Virus record (IMG/VR): IMGVR_UViG_3300021957_000102
Span: 1-40,280 of that record
From: a virus
Length of the DNA stretch: 40,280 nt
Direction: 5' to 3' (one strand)
Positions 22,333 to 30,988 of the stretch are shown here, in pieces. The notes under the pieces are model-generated. The model was not told where the DNA came from and made no database searches. It worked only from the letters and a program-made list of their open reading frames with translations. Made by a program: the position numbers and the translations under genes. Every line of letters begins with the position of its first letter. Position 1 is the stretch's first letter.

Positions 22333-23439
22333 TTATTCGTTAGCACTCAAGGATACACTTACATCTCTCTGTGTCAAGGCATTATTTGCACTAGTGTAAG
22401 TATGTTTCATATATGGTTTCACAGAAGCCACATGATTGTGTCCTGTCACTGACATAACTTGTGGCAAAGGTACACCCTTGTCTATCATTTGGGTTACACC
22501 AGTTCTACGTAAGTCCATAAGCCGTAGTTCTTCTGGTAGTTTAGCTAGTCGCATGACACGTCTACCTACTTTAGACAGACGTTCCATAGTGTACGGCATA
22601 AACATACCTTGCACTGGTCTTGTCGGATGAGGTGCAACAAATAGCTGAAAGCCAAAGTCATTCTTCTGTTCCTTTAACATGTGCAACAGGCTATCAGAGA
22701 TAGGTAGACTGACCTCTGCCCTACGCTTGCTCTGTTCTAACTCTAGTTTACCATAGGTAAAGTCTATGTTATCCCATGTGAGCATACGCATGTCACCTAA
22801 TCGCTGACACCACTCGTATGCCATGTGTACGATCAAGCCAAGGCTTCTGTACTCAAAGTCAGTGTACGCAGTGTCAAGGAACTTGATCACCTCACCATGT
22901 GACCACACCATCTTACGTTGAGGCGCAGCCTTACGCTTGATGTTAGCCCAAGGATTTTGTGTGGCGTACTCCATTTGAATAGCGTAGTTGTATATCCTAC
23001 TGGCACAAGTAGCAGCATGATTGGCAAAAGGTATACCTCGCTTGACCCATTCTTCATAGGCTTGCTTTGCAACCTTAGAGGTAACGTTGAGGTACTTACG
23101 TGTACCCATAGACTGATGTAGTACTGTAAGAAAGTACCTATAGTCTACCTTAGTTGTATCACGTAACATATTGAAATCATTAGATTGATAGTAATAGTTG
23201 ATCAAGTCTGTGACCTTGCTGCCTTTGTACAGCTTTGCAATCTGTAGTTGTTCCTCACGCCAAAGGTCAATGGTATCATTGTGTTGTTTAACTAACTTAC
23301 GAACTTGCTTTAAGTTTGTGCCGTAAGTCTCTCGTTTTACTACACCTTCATCGACCAGTATCTGTGGTGGATTAAAGCGGTACGAGATGTCACCAGAAGA
23401 TGACACTCGTTCCTGTACATACCGTGGTAGCCTAGCCAT
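22333..23439 (-). CDS. int: Tyrosine recombinase / integrase
   Basis: 368 aa. N-terminal arm-binding and core-binding (SAM-like) regions up to ~175, then the catalytic domain: R213 (CQRLGD), K238 (EQSKRR), box II M308-D-L-R311 (RRTG), H334 (TGHNH), and Tyr343 (KPYMKH) as nucleophile. The usual His of H-x-x-R is Met here, a change tolerated in some phage integrases. It implies site-specific integration, so the phage may be temperate, or the gene may be a relic. No tRNA-like attP is visible beside it. It overlaps DUF932 by one base (TAATG). Confidence 0.92.
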   Translation of the reverse strand: MARLPRYVQERVSSSGDISYRFNPPQILVDEGVVKRETYGTNLKQVRKLVKQHNDTIDLWREEQLQIAKLYKGSKVTDLINYYYQSNDFNMLRDTTKVDYRYFLTVLHQSMGTRKYLNVTSKVAKQAYEEWVKRGIPFANHAATCASRIYNYAIQMEYATQNPWANIKRKAAPQRKMVWSHGEVIKFLDTAYTDFEYRSLGLIVHMAYEWCQRLGDMRMLTWDNIDFTYGKLELEQSKRRAEVSLPISDSLLHMLKEQKNDFGFQLFVAPHPTRPVQGMFMPYTMERLSKVGRRVMRLAKLPEELRLMDLRRTGVTQMIDKGVPLPQVMSVTGHNHVASVKPYMKHTYTSANNALTQRDVSVSLSANE

Positions 23440-26367: not shown

Positions 26368-26766
26368 TTATGCTGCTAGGTTATCTAGCTCTGCGTTGAC
26401 ATCTTTCAACTGTGCTTCAAGCATACGCTTGGTTTTTAACAGTTGCATTTTGCCAGTGTTACGCTTGGCTTTGATCAAGCCGAGTGCTTGCAACACTTGA
26501 ACACGATAGGTGATACGGTGCTTGTACTCATTCATAGCTTGAGCTATCTCATTGACAGTCATATCGGCATAGTTCTCCAACAGTACCGTATCAATTACCA
26601 CATAATTGTAGGTATAGTTCACGGCTTTCTGCATGTGATACGTGTGATTGGCATACAACTCAGGGTGAAGTGTCTGTACAGTTGTGATTGTTGAATTTGT
26701 CATAGTGTTAGCTCCTTCGCTAGTTGGGGTTTGTGTAGATGTAGTTGTGTTGGTTTGAGTAGACAT
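26368..26766 (-). CDS. Putative winged-helix transcriptional regulator
   Basis: 132 aa from 26766. An in-frame ATG at 26703 (MTNSTITTVQ) has a better AAGGAG at 8 nt and would drop a 21-residue Thr/Gln-rich leader. Residues ~62-110 have a helix-turn-helix layout (ENYADMTVNEIAQAMN...ITYRVQVLQALGLIKAK) resembling ArsR/MarR-like winged helices: 'lt..eiA..l......tyrv..L...Glika'. A coiled coil (LLKTKRMLEAQLKDVNAEL) follows. It is the only clear HTH candidate in the early cluster, next to the palindromic repeats. Confidence 0.6.
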   Translation of the reverse strand: MSTQTNTTTSTQTPTSEGANTMTNSTITTVQTLHPELYANHTYHMQKAVNYTYNYVVIDTVLLENYADMTVNEIAQAMNEYKHRITYRVQVLQALGLIKAKRNTGKMQLLKTKRMLEAQLKDVNAELDNLAA

Positions 26767-26767
26767 G

Positions 26768-26911
26768 CTATGCTACCTTTCTTGCTTGTAGTTTCTGTTT
26801 ACGTGCTAACTTACGTTCACGTTTCCAATCATCATTATGTTTTTTATTAGCCCCAACGTTGGGGTTAGTTTTCTTGGTGAACTTAACGTAGTTCTGCATC
26901 TCGTAGCGCAT
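26768..26911 (-). CDS. Small basic protein carrying palindromic repeat copy 1 in frame (47 aa)
   Basis: 47 aa from the ATG at 26911 (MRYEMQNYVKFTKK), with AAGGAG 8 nt upstream. Upstream in-frame sequence is open only to a TTG. Residues 15-22 (TNPNVGAN) are encoded by the repeated palindrome. The rest is Lys/Arg-rich (WKRERKLARKQKLQARK), suggesting nucleic-acid binding. It overlaps the preceding 53-aa gene by 29 nt out of frame. Confidence 0.55.
   Translation of the reverse strand: MRYEMQNYVKFTKKTNPNVGANKKHNDDWKRERKLARKQKLQARKVA
26847..26869 (-). repeat. Palindromic element, copy 1 (in gene)
   Basis: 23-bp repeat with core CCCCAACGTTGGGG at 26851-26864, flanked by TTAG on the left and TTAGT on the right (+ strand). 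Lies inside the 47-aa gene, read as TNPNVGA(N) on the minus strand. Confidence 0.9.
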
Positions 26912-27803: not shown

Positions 27804-27826
27804 TTAGCCCCAACGTTGGGGTTAGT
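27804..27826 (-). repeat. Palindromic element, copy 2 (upstream of gp88-like gene)
   Basis: Identical 23 bp, core CCCCAACGTTGGGG at 27808-27821. Intergenic, but in the same reading frame (ACT AAC CCC AAC GTT GGG GCT) as the gene that starts 17 nt downstream on the minus strand. Confidence 0.9.
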
Positions 27827-28004: not shown

Positions 28005-28040
28005 GTCGAAATCCTTTATTGTTGTTGTTAATGTATATAT

Positions 28041-28081
28041 GTTATATAACACTTTCACTAAAGTATCAAGTGTTATATAAC
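28041..28081 (-). repeat. Intergenic hairpin A (perfect 14-bp stem)
   Basis: Perfect inverted repeat GTTATATAACACTT (28041-28054) / AAGTGTTATATAAC (28068-28081), 13-nt loop. It lies between two early genes in the leader of the 54-aa gene. No T run follows, so it is not a standard terminator. Loop and inner stem resemble elements B and C (CTTTCA...CAAGT). Confidence 0.75.
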
Positions 28082-28090
28082 TATATACTA

Positions 28091-28219
28091 TTAAAATAAT
28101 GTATCATGTATCATTGGCATCATTGCCAATAGGAATACAAATGCTACCCAACTAACGGTAAGGCAAACCCAACCGATAGTCCTATTGCGATTGATGCGCC
28201 TTGCTTCACGTAGTGTCAT
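28091..28219 (-). CDS. Small membrane protein (42 aa)
   Basis: 42 aa. A basic N-terminus (MTLREARRINRNR) is followed by one hydrophobic span (TIGWVCLTVSWVAFVFLLAM) and a short tail. By the positive-inside rule the N-terminus would be cytoplasmic. The start overlaps the upstream stop as ATGA. An inner-membrane target in the host early in infection is a reasonable guess. No family known. Confidence 0.65.
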   Translation of the reverse strand: MTLREARRINRNRTIGWVCLTVSWVAFVFLLAMMPMIHDTLF

Positions 28220-28431
28220 GTTGTATACCATCCTGTATCTGTTACCAATGTTTGCTTGCCATCCATCATGCCAAGCTCTGTTTTGTTAGCCCCAACGTTG
28301 GGGTTAGTTTTAGCTTCCTTCGCACGTGAGAGCTTTTCTTGTAGCTCTTCACGCCGCTTACGGTCTTTGACCTCTGCTGTCATAGCATCTGCCCAAGCCA
28401 TAGTAAAACTATTATGTTGCTTATATTTCAT
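28216..28431 (-). CDS. Small hypothetical protein carrying palindrome copy 3 in frame (71 aa)
   Basis: 71 aa from the ATG at 28431, the third of three adjacent ATGs, best spaced after GGAG; 28437 and 28434 are alternatives. A charged helix (AEVKDRKRREELQEKLSRAK) precedes TNPNVGAN at residues 42-49, encoded by the repeat, and a short tail 'GMMDGKQTLVTDTGWYTT'. The inserted peptide separates the helix from the tail like a linker. Overlaps both neighbours. Confidence 0.58.
   Translation of the reverse strand: MKYKQHNSFTMAWADAMTAEVKDRKRREELQEKLSRAKEAKTNPNVGANKTELGMMDGKQTLVTDTGWYTT
28288..28310 (-). repeat. Palindromic element, copy 3 (in gene)
   Basis: Identical 23 bp, core at 28292-28305. In frame with the 71-aa gene, encoding TNPNVGAN. 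Confidence 0.9.
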
Positions 28432-28660
28432 CATCATCTCCAAACATATTTGTCCACTCCAAAGGAGTCATGCCTGTCATCAGGAACTCTCTTTGATCTG
28501 GTGACAAATCAGGCATTATATCCTGTATTAGACCACCACCTGTTAGCCAAAGATCAATCTTATCTTGACTAACAGGTAATTGCATGGAATTTACTTCTTC
28601 AGTAAACATAGATACCATAGTGACGTTAGTCAAGTTTTCTGCCATACGTTCAATTCTCAT
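28421..28660 (-). CDS. Hypothetical early protein (79 aa)
   Basis: 79 aa, acidic C-terminus (FGDDDEI). 'LPVSQDKIDLWLTGGGLIQDIMPDLSPDQREFLMTGMTPLEW' resembles the 'G.liQd.lp.Ls...REfl..G.....W' pattern that I associate with small phage proteins of unknown role. AAAGG precedes the start at ~12 nt. Its end overlaps the next gene by 11 nt. Confidence 0.68.
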   Translation of the reverse strand: MRIERMAENLTNVTMVSMFTEEVNSMQLPVSQDKIDLWLTGGGLIQDIMPDLSPDQREFLMTGMTPLEWTNMFGDDDEI

Positions 28661-28683
28661 AACATTTTACCTTTCTTATGTAT

Positions 28684-28748
28684 GTTATATATATTTATAC
28701 TTTCATAAATTCAAGTATAAATATAAATAACTACATTAAGTAGTTATT
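28684..28748 (-). repeat. Tandem intergenic hairpin element B
   Basis: Two adjacent stem-loops between early genes. Long stem: 19-nt arms 28684-28702 and 28713-28731, 18 of 19 paired, 10-nt loop. Second stem: AATAACTAC (28726-28734) / GTAGTTATT (28740-28748), 5-nt loop, reaching into the stop codon of the preceding gene. The 48-bp long hairpin differs from element C at one loop base only. Confidence 0.8.
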
Positions 28749-28983
28749 AAACCCATTGTGGGTGAATGTTAGCTTGCTCAAGCCACCGCATAGCAGTGTC
28801 TATATCTGGCGCACCATGATCCATACAAGCATTGATACTTTTATCCTCAATAGCACGTTCCTCTGCAAGTTGATTATTCAACTCACGTTGTAAGCTGTCT
28901 AGCAACTCAGTTGTTGGCACTATGCCTCGTGGCCTAAAGCCATAAACATCTTTGTAAAGATCACTAAAAAAATCATAATCCAT
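28747..28983 (-). CDS. Hypothetical early protein (78 aa)
   Basis: 78 aa, starts MDYDFFSDLYKDVYGFRPRG, a motif I recognise in small phage proteins next to early promoters ('D.yKdvyGfRPRg'), function unknown. The rest is helical (LLDSLQRELNNQLAEERAIE) with a final Trp-rich part (MRWLEQANIHPQWV). AAAGGAGATTCAAA is an excellent ribosome binding site. Flanked on both sides by hairpin elements B and C. Confidence 0.72.
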   Translation of the reverse strand: MDYDFFSDLYKDVYGFRPRGIVPTTELLDSLQRELNNQLAEERAIEDKSINACMDHGAPDIDTAMRWLEQANIHPQWV

Positions 28984-29003
28984 TTTGAATCTCCTTTATG
29001 TGT

Positions 29004-29069
29004 GTTATATATATTTATACTTTCACAAATTCAAGTATAAATATAAATAACCACAGTAATGTGTGGTTA
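29004..29069 (-). repeat. Tandem intergenic hairpin element C
   Basis: Same plan as element B. Long stem arms 29004-29022 and 29033-29051 (18 of 19 paired). Second stem TAACCACA (29048-29055) / TGTGGTTA (29062-29069). Relative to B the second stem changes AACTAC/GTAGTT to AACCAC/GTGGTT, a compensatory base-pair change. Confidence 0.8.
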
Positions 29070-29081
29070 ATTGGTAACAGC

Positions 29082-29714
29082 CTAAGCTGCTACCTTGAGT
29101 TCTTCTTTTTCAGAGACAGTATCAATCTCCATAAGAGCCTCTGCTATGTCAAGAAGATCGACGTTAGCATATGCAGCGGCCTTGACTATGCTTTGAACGA
29201 TTTCCTCTTTTGTTGGTGGTGCTGTATTAGCCCCAACGTTGGGGTTAGTTTCAGCGACAGTATCTTCTTGTACTGTCTCTTCGGGTGTGTCTTCATCTGA
29301 TGATGGAGTGTTTGCTTTAGCAGCTTGTTTCATTGCTCTCTGCAAAGCAGTAAGTGAGGTGAAACCTTTCTTTGAGGTTTGCATGAACTCTCTTGCTTCT
29401 TCTTCATTAAGAACGAACCAGAGAGCTTCGGAACGGCGTTGATCTGGAATATCTTTGATATGGCAATCGGCCAATCTGGAAGATTTAATACGCTCACCAC
29501 CTTCGGCTTTGAGTTCAACCATCAGATTGCCAAGGGCAAGAGTGAAACCAGAGATCGCTTTGACGAAAACAGAAGCACTTTCTTTTGGTGCTTTACGATC
29601 AAGTGATCTATTGAAGTTTCTCATATCAACTTTGTTGAAAGTGTCGAACCTTTCCGCTAAGGCTTTGCCTTGATCCTCAAGAGTAGTGATGTTTTGAATT
29701 TGGAGGTTTGCCAT
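29082..29714 (-). CDS. First gene of the leftward early operon; hypothetical, carries palindrome copy 4
   Basis: 210 aa. A helical N-terminal domain with 'LADCHIKDIPDQRRSEALWFVLNEEEAREFMQTSKKGFTSLTAL' at ~81-123 is joined by an acidic, low-complexity linker (~136-168) to a helical C-terminus (EEIVQSIVKAAAYANVDLLDIAEAL). TNPNVGAN at 156-163 in the linker is the repeat-encoded peptide. AAAGGA lies 7 nt before the start. It follows the presumed main promoter, so it is probably made first after infection. Not recognised. Confidence 0.7.
   Translation of the reverse strand: MANLQIQNITTLEDQGKALAERFDTFNKVDMRNFNRSLDRKAPKESASVFVKAISGFTLALGNLMVELKAEGGERIKSSRLADCHIKDIPDQRRSEALWFVLNEEEAREFMQTSKKGFTSLTALQRAMKQAAKANTPSSDEDTPEETVQEDTVAETNPNVGANTAPPTKEEIVQSIVKAAAYANVDLLDIAEALMEIDTVSEKEELKVAA
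29227..29249 (-). repeat. Palindromic element, copy 4 (in gene)
   Basis: Identical 23 bp, core at 29231-29244. In frame within the acidic linker of the 210-aa protein. Confidence 0.9.
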
Positions 29715-29752
29715 TTTTTCGTTCCTTTATGTATATTCTATTTATATAAGAG

Positions 29753-29787
29753 ATTATTACTCTCTCACAAAAAGTGAGAGTAATAAT
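29753..29787 (-). promoter_or_regulatory. 5'-leader hairpin D
   Basis: Perfect 12-bp stem ATTATTACTCTC (29753-29764) / GAGAGTAATAAT (29776-29787), 11-nt loop containing CAC...GTG. It would lie at the very 5' end of the leftward early transcript, just after the -10 box. A 5' stem-loop of this kind often stabilises phage mRNA; that use is inferred. Confidence 0.6.
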
Positions 29788-29790
29788 ATC

Positions 29791-29821
29791 GTTATAAATA
29801 TGAATATACTATAGTTGTCAA
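29791..29821 (-). promoter_or_regulatory. Probable leftward early promoter
   Basis: On the minus strand a perfect -35 box TTGACA (29821-29816) is followed 19 nt later by TATAAC (29796-29791), five of six to the sigma-70 -10 consensus; with 17 nt spacing the box would be TTTATA. It lies ~75 bp upstream of the first leftward gene with nothing else between. Host-polymerase recognition would fit a phage without its own RNA polymerase. Confidence 0.6.
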
Positions 29822-29963
29822 TCCACAAAATTTGCCTCGTGATCCTCTGCCCACGCCGTTTCCCACGCTACTGCAAAAATATATTTCATATATATTTTGA
29901 AGTTCGTGCGCTAAACTTGTGAGGCCAACCACTATCCAATCACCATAACTGTGACAAATATAT

Positions 29964-30265
29964 CACTATCAAAGATAGTGTTAGCCCCAACGTTGGGGTT
30001 AGTGATTTACATTGGCAGAGCTAATGCGGCTTGTAGGATCACATGATTGACCAATGGTATTGGTAAGAGGGGGTAGGGTTCTGTACAGCTTTGCTGTAAG
30101 GGTATCTATCAGCATAGCTGATGTAGTGGATAATATGCATCGGCATCACTACACATCTTCGATGTGAAAATCCCCCCTGTTTTTTCACTACTTGTAGTGG
30201 CAACTGATTGCATAACAGTTGTCGTAGACAAGTAACCTGTTGAAACTAAACGTATCTTCGATACG
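29964..30265. repeat. Array of short hairpins, mostly with 3-nt loops
   Basis: Perfect inverted repeats in order: CACTATC-AAA-GATAGTG (29964-29980), ACCAAT-GGT-ATTGGT (30050-30064), TACAGC-TTT-GCTGTA (30084-30098), ATCAGC-ATA-GCTGAT (30108-30122), GTAGTG/CACTAC enclosing ATGC/GCAT (30123-30152), CACATC-TTC-GATGTG (30152-30166), GTGAAAA/TTTTCAC (30164-30188), CACTAC-TT-GTAGTG (30186-30199), CAACTG/CAGTTG (30201-30221), CGTATC-TTC-GATACG (30251-30265). Stem sequences differ but stem length and loop size are nearly constant. Confidence 0.8.
29981..30003 (-). repeat. Palindromic element, copy 5 (control region)
   Basis: Identical 23 bp, core at 29985-29998. Not in any gene. It directly abuts a 7-bp hairpin (29964-29980). 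Confidence 0.9.
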
Positions 30266-30304
30266 GTGGTGAATGATGCTATCACATTTGCTTTCAACCT
30301 GCGT

Positions 30305-30366
30305 CATGGCCTTGCATTATGGGCGCAATTGCACGTTGAAGGTGGGTGGGCAGGGGCCATGCGCCC
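30305..30366. repeat. GC-rich patch with interlocking inverted repeats
   Basis: CATGGCC (30305-30311) pairs with GGCCATG (30355-30361), and GGGCGCA (30321-30327) pairs with TGCGCCC (30360-30366). The two right arms overlap by two bases, so the folds are alternatives. The patch is much richer in GC than the surrounding AT-rich DNA. Confidence 0.55.
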
Positions 30367-30595
30367 CCCTAGCGTTATATATGCATGAACTCCTACACAG
30401 ATCAGGAAAATGAGGTGTTAACCACATTACACATATAGTGGTTTACAGTATTATGTGATCACAAATATAGTGTTGTATATGTGCAACACAGCAACATTAA
30501 TAAATATAATGCTATCACAGTACGATTTACTATTGACATAATAATTAGAATGTGTAAAACTAAGTATAATAGTTAGGGTAGGGTCACTATAAGTG

Positions 30596-30682
30596 ATACA
30601 CGTACAGTAAAACACTTAAATACACACATACATAACTAAAATAACATATATCTATAAATACATATAAGTATACACGTACAGT
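30596..30682. repeat. Pair of 13-bp direct repeats
   Basis: ATACACGTACAGT occurs at 30596-30608 and again at 30670-30682, 74 bp apart, within very AT-rich DNA. The related sequence GATACAC is beside each copy. Possible binding sites of a regulator or initiator; no further copies seen. Confidence 0.6.
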
Positions 30683-30775
30683 GATACACTTTAAGTGAAG
30701 ATACATGTAGCTATATACGTAGATAATCGCTGTTAGGCGAGTATTTTTTGTATATATAAATAAAAAGTATTGACA

Positions 30776-30988
30776 ATGGTAAAGAAATCAGTAAAACTAA
30801 GGACAGACAATGTTCTTGAAGAGTTTTATAACCATGTATTAAGTGGTAATCTCGAAGAGTTACATATTCCCCACAGTGATGTATTCTATGTACGTGAAGC
30901 AGTGCAGAATCATTATGGTAAACCCTTTACTCTGGAACATGTAGAGTGGGCTATGCGTGAAGAAGGTTGGACTGATGGCAATTCCTGA
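30776..30988 (+). CDS. First rightward gene, small hypothetical (70 aa)
   Basis: 70 aa from the ATG at 30776 (MVKKSVKLRTDNVLEEFY); the TTG two codons earlier is part of a TTGACA sequence. No clear SD. 'NVLEEFYNHVLSGNLEELHIPHSDVFYVREAVQNHYGKPFTLEHVEWAMREEGW' is a helical pattern I recognise loosely from marine phages. Function unknown. It overlaps the next gene by 14 nt. Confidence 0.65.
   Translation: MVKKSVKLRTDNVLEEFYNHVLSGNLEELHIPHSDVFYVREAVQNHYGKPFTLEHVEWAMREEGWTDGNS

Follow-up and report, generated by a model that had tools for sequence, protein, structure and literature searches.

Small hairpins of fixed size and changing sequence in the early control region of an HMO-2011-type phage and its relatives

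Why should a few hundred bases of phage DNA carry many small hairpins that share one geometry and differ in sequence? The question is raised by positions 29964-30265 of IMG/VR virus record IMGVR_UViG_3300021957_000102, whose 40,280 bases (the window) were analysed as a whole. The window is a fragment, 40 kb long, of a phage of the HMO-2011 type, a group said to be dominant and widely distributed in the ocean (PMC9038755). Its gene order is that of the group, with a terminase and a leftward early module containing integrase, primase, helicase and DNA polymerase, and its control region matches those of the Roseobacter phages CRP-345 and CRP-1 and the Puniceispirillum phage HMO-2011. As complete relatives measure 54-55 kb, about 14 kb is absent from the window. 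The hairpins are situated in a divergent non-coding region (29715-30775) between the leftward gene 1 and a rightward gene for a 70-aa protein (Table 1), and the genome paper of the group that was searched makes no mention of them. An earlier note, made from the letters of this stretch, had proposed that constant geometry with changing sequence reflects recognition of shape, in single-stranded DNA or in RNA.

The 302 bp of the leader contain at least ten perfect inverted repeats, as that note had counted: six with 3-nt loops (AAA, GGT, TTT, ATA, TTC and TTC), all found where it had placed them, and four further ones. The array is non-random. Triloop hairpins in which the stem has 6 bp or more number six, whereas 2000 dinucleotide shuffles of this stretch gave a mean of 0.10 and never more than 2, so that six was reached in 0 of 2000; in the same 302 bp such stems are never combined with loops of 4-8 nt. 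Both strands also fold better than shuffled sequences, the early-sense strand more so. Since the window's own gene 1 lacks triloops of this kind, the window's array is confined to the leader.

Table 1. Coordinates of the features in and around the hairpin array of the window
Feature	Position	Strand	Remarks
Tyrosine integrase gene	22333-23439		
22-bp palindrome, copy 1	26847..26868	+	
22-bp palindrome, copy 2	27804..27825	+	
22-bp palindrome, copy 3	28286..28307	+	inside early ORF
Gene 1, 210 aa	29082..29714	-	first leftward early gene; bears many hairpins in relatives; co-occurs with array
22-bp palindrome, copy 4	29227..29248	+	inside gene 1; encodes NPNVGAN
CACTATC-AAA-GATAGTG	29964..29980	.	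7-bp stem, 3-nt loop
22-bp palindrome TTAGCCCCAACGTTGGGGTTAG, leader copy	29981..30002	+	core GTCCAA..TTGGAC conserved in relatives
CCCCA-ACGT-TGGGG	29985		perfect inverted repeat
CATTGGC-AGA-GCTAATG	30010..30026	.	imperfect, one G-T; seventh triloop; read directly from sequence
ACCAAT-GGT-ATTGGT	30050..30064	.	relatives: ATCAAT-GGT-ATTGAT, ACCATC-ACA-GATGGT
TACAGC-TTT-GCTGTA	30084..30098	.	loop AAA in relatives L020, L021, L026
ATCAGC-ATA-GCTGAT	30108..30122	.	6-bp stem, 3-nt loop
CACATC-TTC-GATGTG	30152..30166	.	site A
CACTA-CTTG-TAGTG	30186..30199	.	site B; 5-bp stem, 4-nt loop
CAACTG-ATTGCATAA-CAGTTG	30201..30221	.	N9 loop; inside block GGCAACTGATTNCATAACAGTTG; near-invariant in relatives
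TTGTC-GTA-GACAA	30219..30231	.	site D; compensated form TTGGC-GAA-GCCAA in L077
CGTATC-TTC-GATACG	30251..30265	.	site E, right-hand end of array; relatives: CATATC-TTT-GATATG, TATATC-TAC-GATATA
Most conserved non-coding block right of array	30390..30447	.	inverted repeat TGTTAACCAC (30416-30425) / GTGGTTTACA (30438-30447)
70-aa gene	30776..30988	+	first gene of rightward operon; query used to find relatives

A search with the 70-aa protein recovered 80 IMG/VR loci, and further loci were gathered by means of the conserved block GGCAACTGATTNNATAACAGTTG; 63 non-redundant sequences were then anchored on this block (anchor at window position 30200), around which the alignment is almost free of gaps. 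The note had named conservation of stems in relatives as a check, and the outcome favours it: the same places form hairpins while both of their arms are altered, so that position and pairing are conserved. At the site of the 29964 hairpin relatives show CACAGT-ATA-ACTGTG, CACATC-AAA-GATGTG or CATATAC-TTC-GTATATG, and other sequences that form hairpins at conserved places include CACATC-TTC-GATGTG, CACACC-TTC-GGTGTG, CACACT-AAG-AGTGTG and CACAAC-CTT-GTTGTG. Of the 41 distinct aligned forms of site A, 19 are hairpins, and their changes affect both arms. Given that some relatives have no hairpin at the same register, individual units appear to be dispensable.

Across the 63 relatives perfect hairpins with loops of 3-5 nt exceed expectation about 10-30-fold over a stretch that leads out of the control region into gene 1, the first early gene. 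For stems of at least 6 bp with loops of 3, 4 or 5 nt the enrichment spans about -1250 to +75 of the anchor and is strongest at 3 and 4 nt (in the bin at -750, 122 triloop hairpins against 3.8 expected). Hairpins number ~17.7 per 1.33 kb, versus 2.3 on the right side. The excess declines leftward over ~3.5 kb and has a sharp right edge near 30275, counts on the right side being close to expectation; it is absent from the late genes and restricted to the early side of the control region. Its extent had been understated by the earlier reading, as in relatives it runs leftward across the first early gene. Part of the excess at 4-nt loops in the early genes belongs to a separate family of 14-bp palindromes discussed below.

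The units are also fixed in size. Leader triloops have stems of 6 bp in 124 cases (10 expected), of 7 bp in 17 and of 8 bp in one, the corresponding figures for the gene 1 region being 262, 47 and 2, and for loops of 6-8 nt the excess is small and scattered. Of 68 distinct leader triloops, 53 close the loop with C-G, 14 with T-A, one with G-C and none with A-T, so that the closing pair is pyrimidine-purine in 67. The arms follow a weak consensus, CACAYC-NNN-GRTGTG. On the early-sense strand the loops are A-rich and of GNA type in 43 of 182, versus 13 of 182 on the opposite strand; with both strands counted, GNA is found in a minority of the distinct leader loops (20 of 68). Nearest-neighbour energies did not discriminate between DNA and RNA, and the energy tables leave the closing-pair preference unexplained. 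Spacing is irregular, with no 10.5-bp period.

Pyrimidine-purine closure and GNA loops are features that the promoter hairpins of phage N4, to which the earlier note had drawn a parallel, are reported to require for extrusion (PMC4496689). The likeness holds for the 5-7-bp stem with its 3-nt loop, for the closing pair and for the over-representation of GNA, and it fails for the mechanism. The N4 virion RNA polymerase (vRNAP) family, phrog_2206, is absent from the window, in agreement with the note, and from HMO-2011, CRP-345 and CRP-1, with N4 itself scoring as positive control. Profile, phmmer and motif searches gave no RNA polymerase match among the large proteins; in a search with PF00940 the controls gave no signal. 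Closing pairs are mostly C-G, but the accompanying GNA loop is usually missing, and the array comprises dozens of units, some of them intragenic. That the hairpins are N4-like promoters for a virion or other single-subunit RNA polymerase is therefore largely refuted, and we regard it as the least probable of the explanations considered here.

The hairpins in gene 1 are independent of what the gene encodes. In 62 distinct sequences it contains 241 triloops, whereas permutation of synonymous codons within the gene leaves 28 (maximum 34), which indicates that the excess is no by-product of the protein sequence. The codon in the loop varies (KANGF, KAKGF, KATGF, KASGF, KARGF) and the stem is retained. 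The early genes of HMO-2011 likewise exceed synonymous permutation at loops of 3, 4 and 5 nt, and those of CRP-345 do so clearly at 3 and 5, with loop 4 equalling the permutation maximum (7 versus a mean of 2.7 and a maximum of 7); the late genes of both phages show no excess at loops of 3-5 nt.

Among isolates the array is strong in HMO-2011 and clear in CRP-1, where it lies mainly within gene 1, both phages having little DNA similarity to the window; CRP-345 possesses gene 1 but its array is weak. No array was found in the parts examined of CRP-2, CRP-3, CRP-207, CRP-212, CRP-235 and CRP-603 (the first 9 kb for CRP-2, CRP-3 and CRP-207). Homologues of gene 1 among 50,697 phage records are limited to HMO-2011, CRP-345 and CRP-1. 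Array and gene 1 are thus both present (window, HMO-2011, CRP-1, CRP-345) or both absent (six isolates, three of them partly read), a correlation that covers few independent lineages. The gene 1 protein is predicted to be all-helical (mean pLDDT 69) and has no family match, no PDB match and no fold suggesting DNA binding; that it might be the binding partner of the hairpins is a guess.

Whether the units act as DNA or as RNA can be approached through the kinds of pair that they tolerate. Changes are paired: at five aligned sites, counting forms with at most one mismatch, 348 base pairs are Watson-Crick, 4 G-T, 2 A-C and 8 other, and compensated changes in the leader comprise 128 transversion swaps versus 143 transitions. 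A first mismatch scan that did not use the alignment was overwhelmed by background. Relative to expectation perfect stems are enriched 7-17-fold; for stems with a single internal mismatch, whether G-T or A-C, the ratio is 0.85-2-fold, neither type being consistently preferred. As internal G-T is no commoner than A-C, RNA structure is not supported. This pattern fits DNA, in which both mismatches would be harmful, or the copying of one arm from the other.

These counts bear directly on the possibility that the leftward mRNA carries short stem-loops, in its leader and first early genes, which protect the transcript or are bound by a protein. Such a role would suit an array that lies in the leader and 5' portion of what is presumably a leftward operon and becomes sparser along it, the A-rich, GNA-enriched loops of the early-sense strand, and the better folding of that strand. 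In the gene 1 region single-mismatch forms are also biased in the expected direction (+ strand G-T 9 and A-C 23, hence G-U 23 and A-C 9 on the early-sense strand), but strand-biased mutation could produce this, and in the leader the two are balanced (+ strand G-T 11 and A-C 14, hence G-U 14 and A-C 11). Furthermore, there is hardly any enrichment of hairpins with a single internal G-U in comparison with perfect ones, RNAalifold gives the early-sense strand no clear advantage, and Rfam yielded no match at the gathering threshold and chance-level matches alone in a relaxed search. We therefore consider a function in early RNA improbable. Of the idea of shape recognition in single-stranded DNA or RNA, the constant geometry with changing sequence stands, being common to relatives and kept by paired changes, while the RNA alternative loses ground. 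The data support the view that sequence counts for less than shape, or than a process that generates it.

A shape-making process is in fact a serious rival. Template switching is known to homogenise the arms of quasi-palindromes and to invert their spacers (PMC8604942, PMC8794818), it is associated with transcription in yeast (PMC3820800), and similarly all-or-none palindromes occur in the coding sequences of nematomorph mitochondria (PMC6649704). If quasi-palindromes were made and corrected in this manner while a highly transcribed or single-stranded early region is replicated, mutation alone could drive the array and no function would be necessary. Homogenised arms and spacer inversions are indeed observed. 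At site B, where 20 of 21 hairpin forms are perfect, the loops TTTA and TAAA occur 7:7, and ACCACC-TTC-AGTGGT in L118 faces ACCACT-GAA-GGTGGT in L156. The near match of transversion pair swaps to transitions in the leader, the gradient falling off from the control region and the invasion of coding sequence by palindromes point the same way. Against this, the process sets no ceiling on arm length and favours no special loop size, whereas stems here are limited to 5-7 bp and loops to 3-5 nt, and the sites are fixed in position while their sequence turns over. Both arms are often new (CACTAC-TT-GTAGTG versus CACTCT-AA-AGAGTG), even between close relatives, e.g. CACTACTTGTAGTG in the window versus CACTCTAAAGAGTG in L022, which copying of one arm does not give, and six isolates of the same type do without the array. 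Divergence per nucleotide is equal at hairpin sites (0.066) and flanks (0.070), so that rate decides for neither selection nor mutation. On balance a purely mutational origin appears rather unlikely, although it ranks second among the readings, ahead of early RNA.

The palindromes first counted with the array were split from it on account of their sequence conservation within each genome. The 22-bp palindrome TTAGCCCCAACGTTGGGGTTAG has 5 exact copies in the window's early region, with 0 expected. In L022/L010, which is ~95% identical to the window, all five are altered in the same way: in L022 every copy carries the core CCCCGACATCGGGG instead of CCCCAACGTTGGGG, the leader copy being one further base short. 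These repeats belong to a family of 14-bp palindromes of the type GTCCRANNTYGGAC, of which most relatives with enough sequence have 3-7 copies, as a rule in one version per genome (L068 has two), and HMO-2011 has five copies of AGTCCG-N4-CGGACT. Sites near-identical within a genome thus change together between genomes, and such coordinated change at dispersed positions suggests recognition by one protein, as for the stoperators of mycobacteriophages (PMC6550527); the family looks like a candidate operator set. Its copy in gene 1 encodes SNVGQ or NPNVGAN. A short peptide module (NPNVGAN or SNVGQ ... GK.GLV.DTGW) that contains the 14-bp palindrome is common to window 28216-28437 and gene 1 of CRP-345 (L218:1-633), the proteins being otherwise different. 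A 132-aa early protein (26368-26766) has a sub-threshold MarR-like winged-helix match and would be a candidate regulator of the family.

The genuine operator-like family in the same region, together with the weak consensus of the arms, raises the possibility that the hairpins too are double-stranded operators, bound by a dimeric regulator of loose half-site specificity. Yet their stems differ between sites while the arms of each match, which binding to half-sites would not enforce, and helical phasing is lacking; this explanation is accordingly very unlikely.

The reading that we prefer, with a probability of roughly 0.4, is that DNA-level selection keeps an array of mini-hairpins across the leader and the first early genes in a single HMO-2011-type branch, and that the region represents one end of this array. 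We infer, in other words, that selection and not mutation maintains the hairpins. Negative supercoiling or strand opening at the start of early transcription or replication might allow the units to fold, either within the early-sense (non-template) strand or into small cruciforms, and the folded units might then serve as sequence-independent structural sites that stop the early control region from closing or are recognised by a structure-specific protein, for which the gene 1 product would be a candidate. Selection on DNA has to contend with the loop inversions and with sites hairpin-less at the same register, as a mutational process would give, and further with the irregular spacing, the minority of GNA loops, the weak array of CRP-345 and a gene 1 protein with no DNA-binding match. 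The more general proposition, that a marine lineage maintains, from its early control region across its first gene, a kilobase-scale, shape-defined and sequence-free hairpin array which serves to open, protect or mark this DNA, is put forward still more tentatively.

The surroundings of the array hold further elements. The conserved block to its right, with its inverted repeat, is a possible early promoter, operator or origin core. GTDB contigs contain no prophage copies of the conserved block. The earlier parallel to hairpin-based replication origins fits weakly, in position and in GC skew, whose cumulative curve has its minimum and turn near 29-30 kb of the window; as skew also tracks gene orientation, this is weak evidence for an origin. 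The tyrosine integrase gene prompted consideration of an attP site within the array, for which nothing positive was found; the window has no detectable tRNA genes. Just upstream of gene 1 lies a long imperfect inverted repeat (29731-29809, 34-nt arms, 74%) with a conserved CTCTCAC...GTGAGAG hairpin. Similar AT-rich modules (28020-28090, 28660-28745, 28983-29060) precede successive early genes and contain 9-bp inverted repeats such as TTTATACTT...AAGTATAAA; they are possibly repeated promoter or terminator units.

If the proposed reading is true, the array would be a type of cis-element whose only conserved property is the fold of its DNA. As a selected feature it would establish sequence-independent DNA secondary structure as a conserved trait outside N4, dense enough to override codon choice; as a mutational one it would be a naturally occurring hot zone for template switching, whose size limit calls for explanation. 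In both cases the question is open to direct test, thanks to the dozens of natural variants that can be aligned. The set of co-varying 14-bp palindromes, for its part, may point to a system of immunity or operators in phages whose lysogeny is uncertain.

Among known systems the array shares with template-switch palindromes (PMC6649704, PMC8794818, PMC8604942) near-binary arm identity, spacer inversion, spread into coding sequence and rapid turnover. The nematomorph arms reach hundreds of bp, in contrast to the 5-7-bp ceiling, 3-5-nt loops, fixed positions and single genomic region seen here. Like the early promoters of N4, the units combine a 5-7-bp stem, a 3-nt loop and a 5' C/3' G closing pair in an early region, with GNA over-represented on one strand and stem letters free so long as they pair. 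N4 has three such promoters and a vRNAP to read them, whereas the array has tens of units and no vRNAP, its loops are mostly non-GNA, those of 4-5 nt are also enriched, and units lie within coding genes. The 14-bp family, finally, resembles the stoperators of Cluster A mycobacteriophages in being dispersed along early genes, uniform within a genome and shifted between relatives; stoperators are asymmetric, 13-14 bp long and present in 20-30 copies, while this family is palindromic and present in 3-7.
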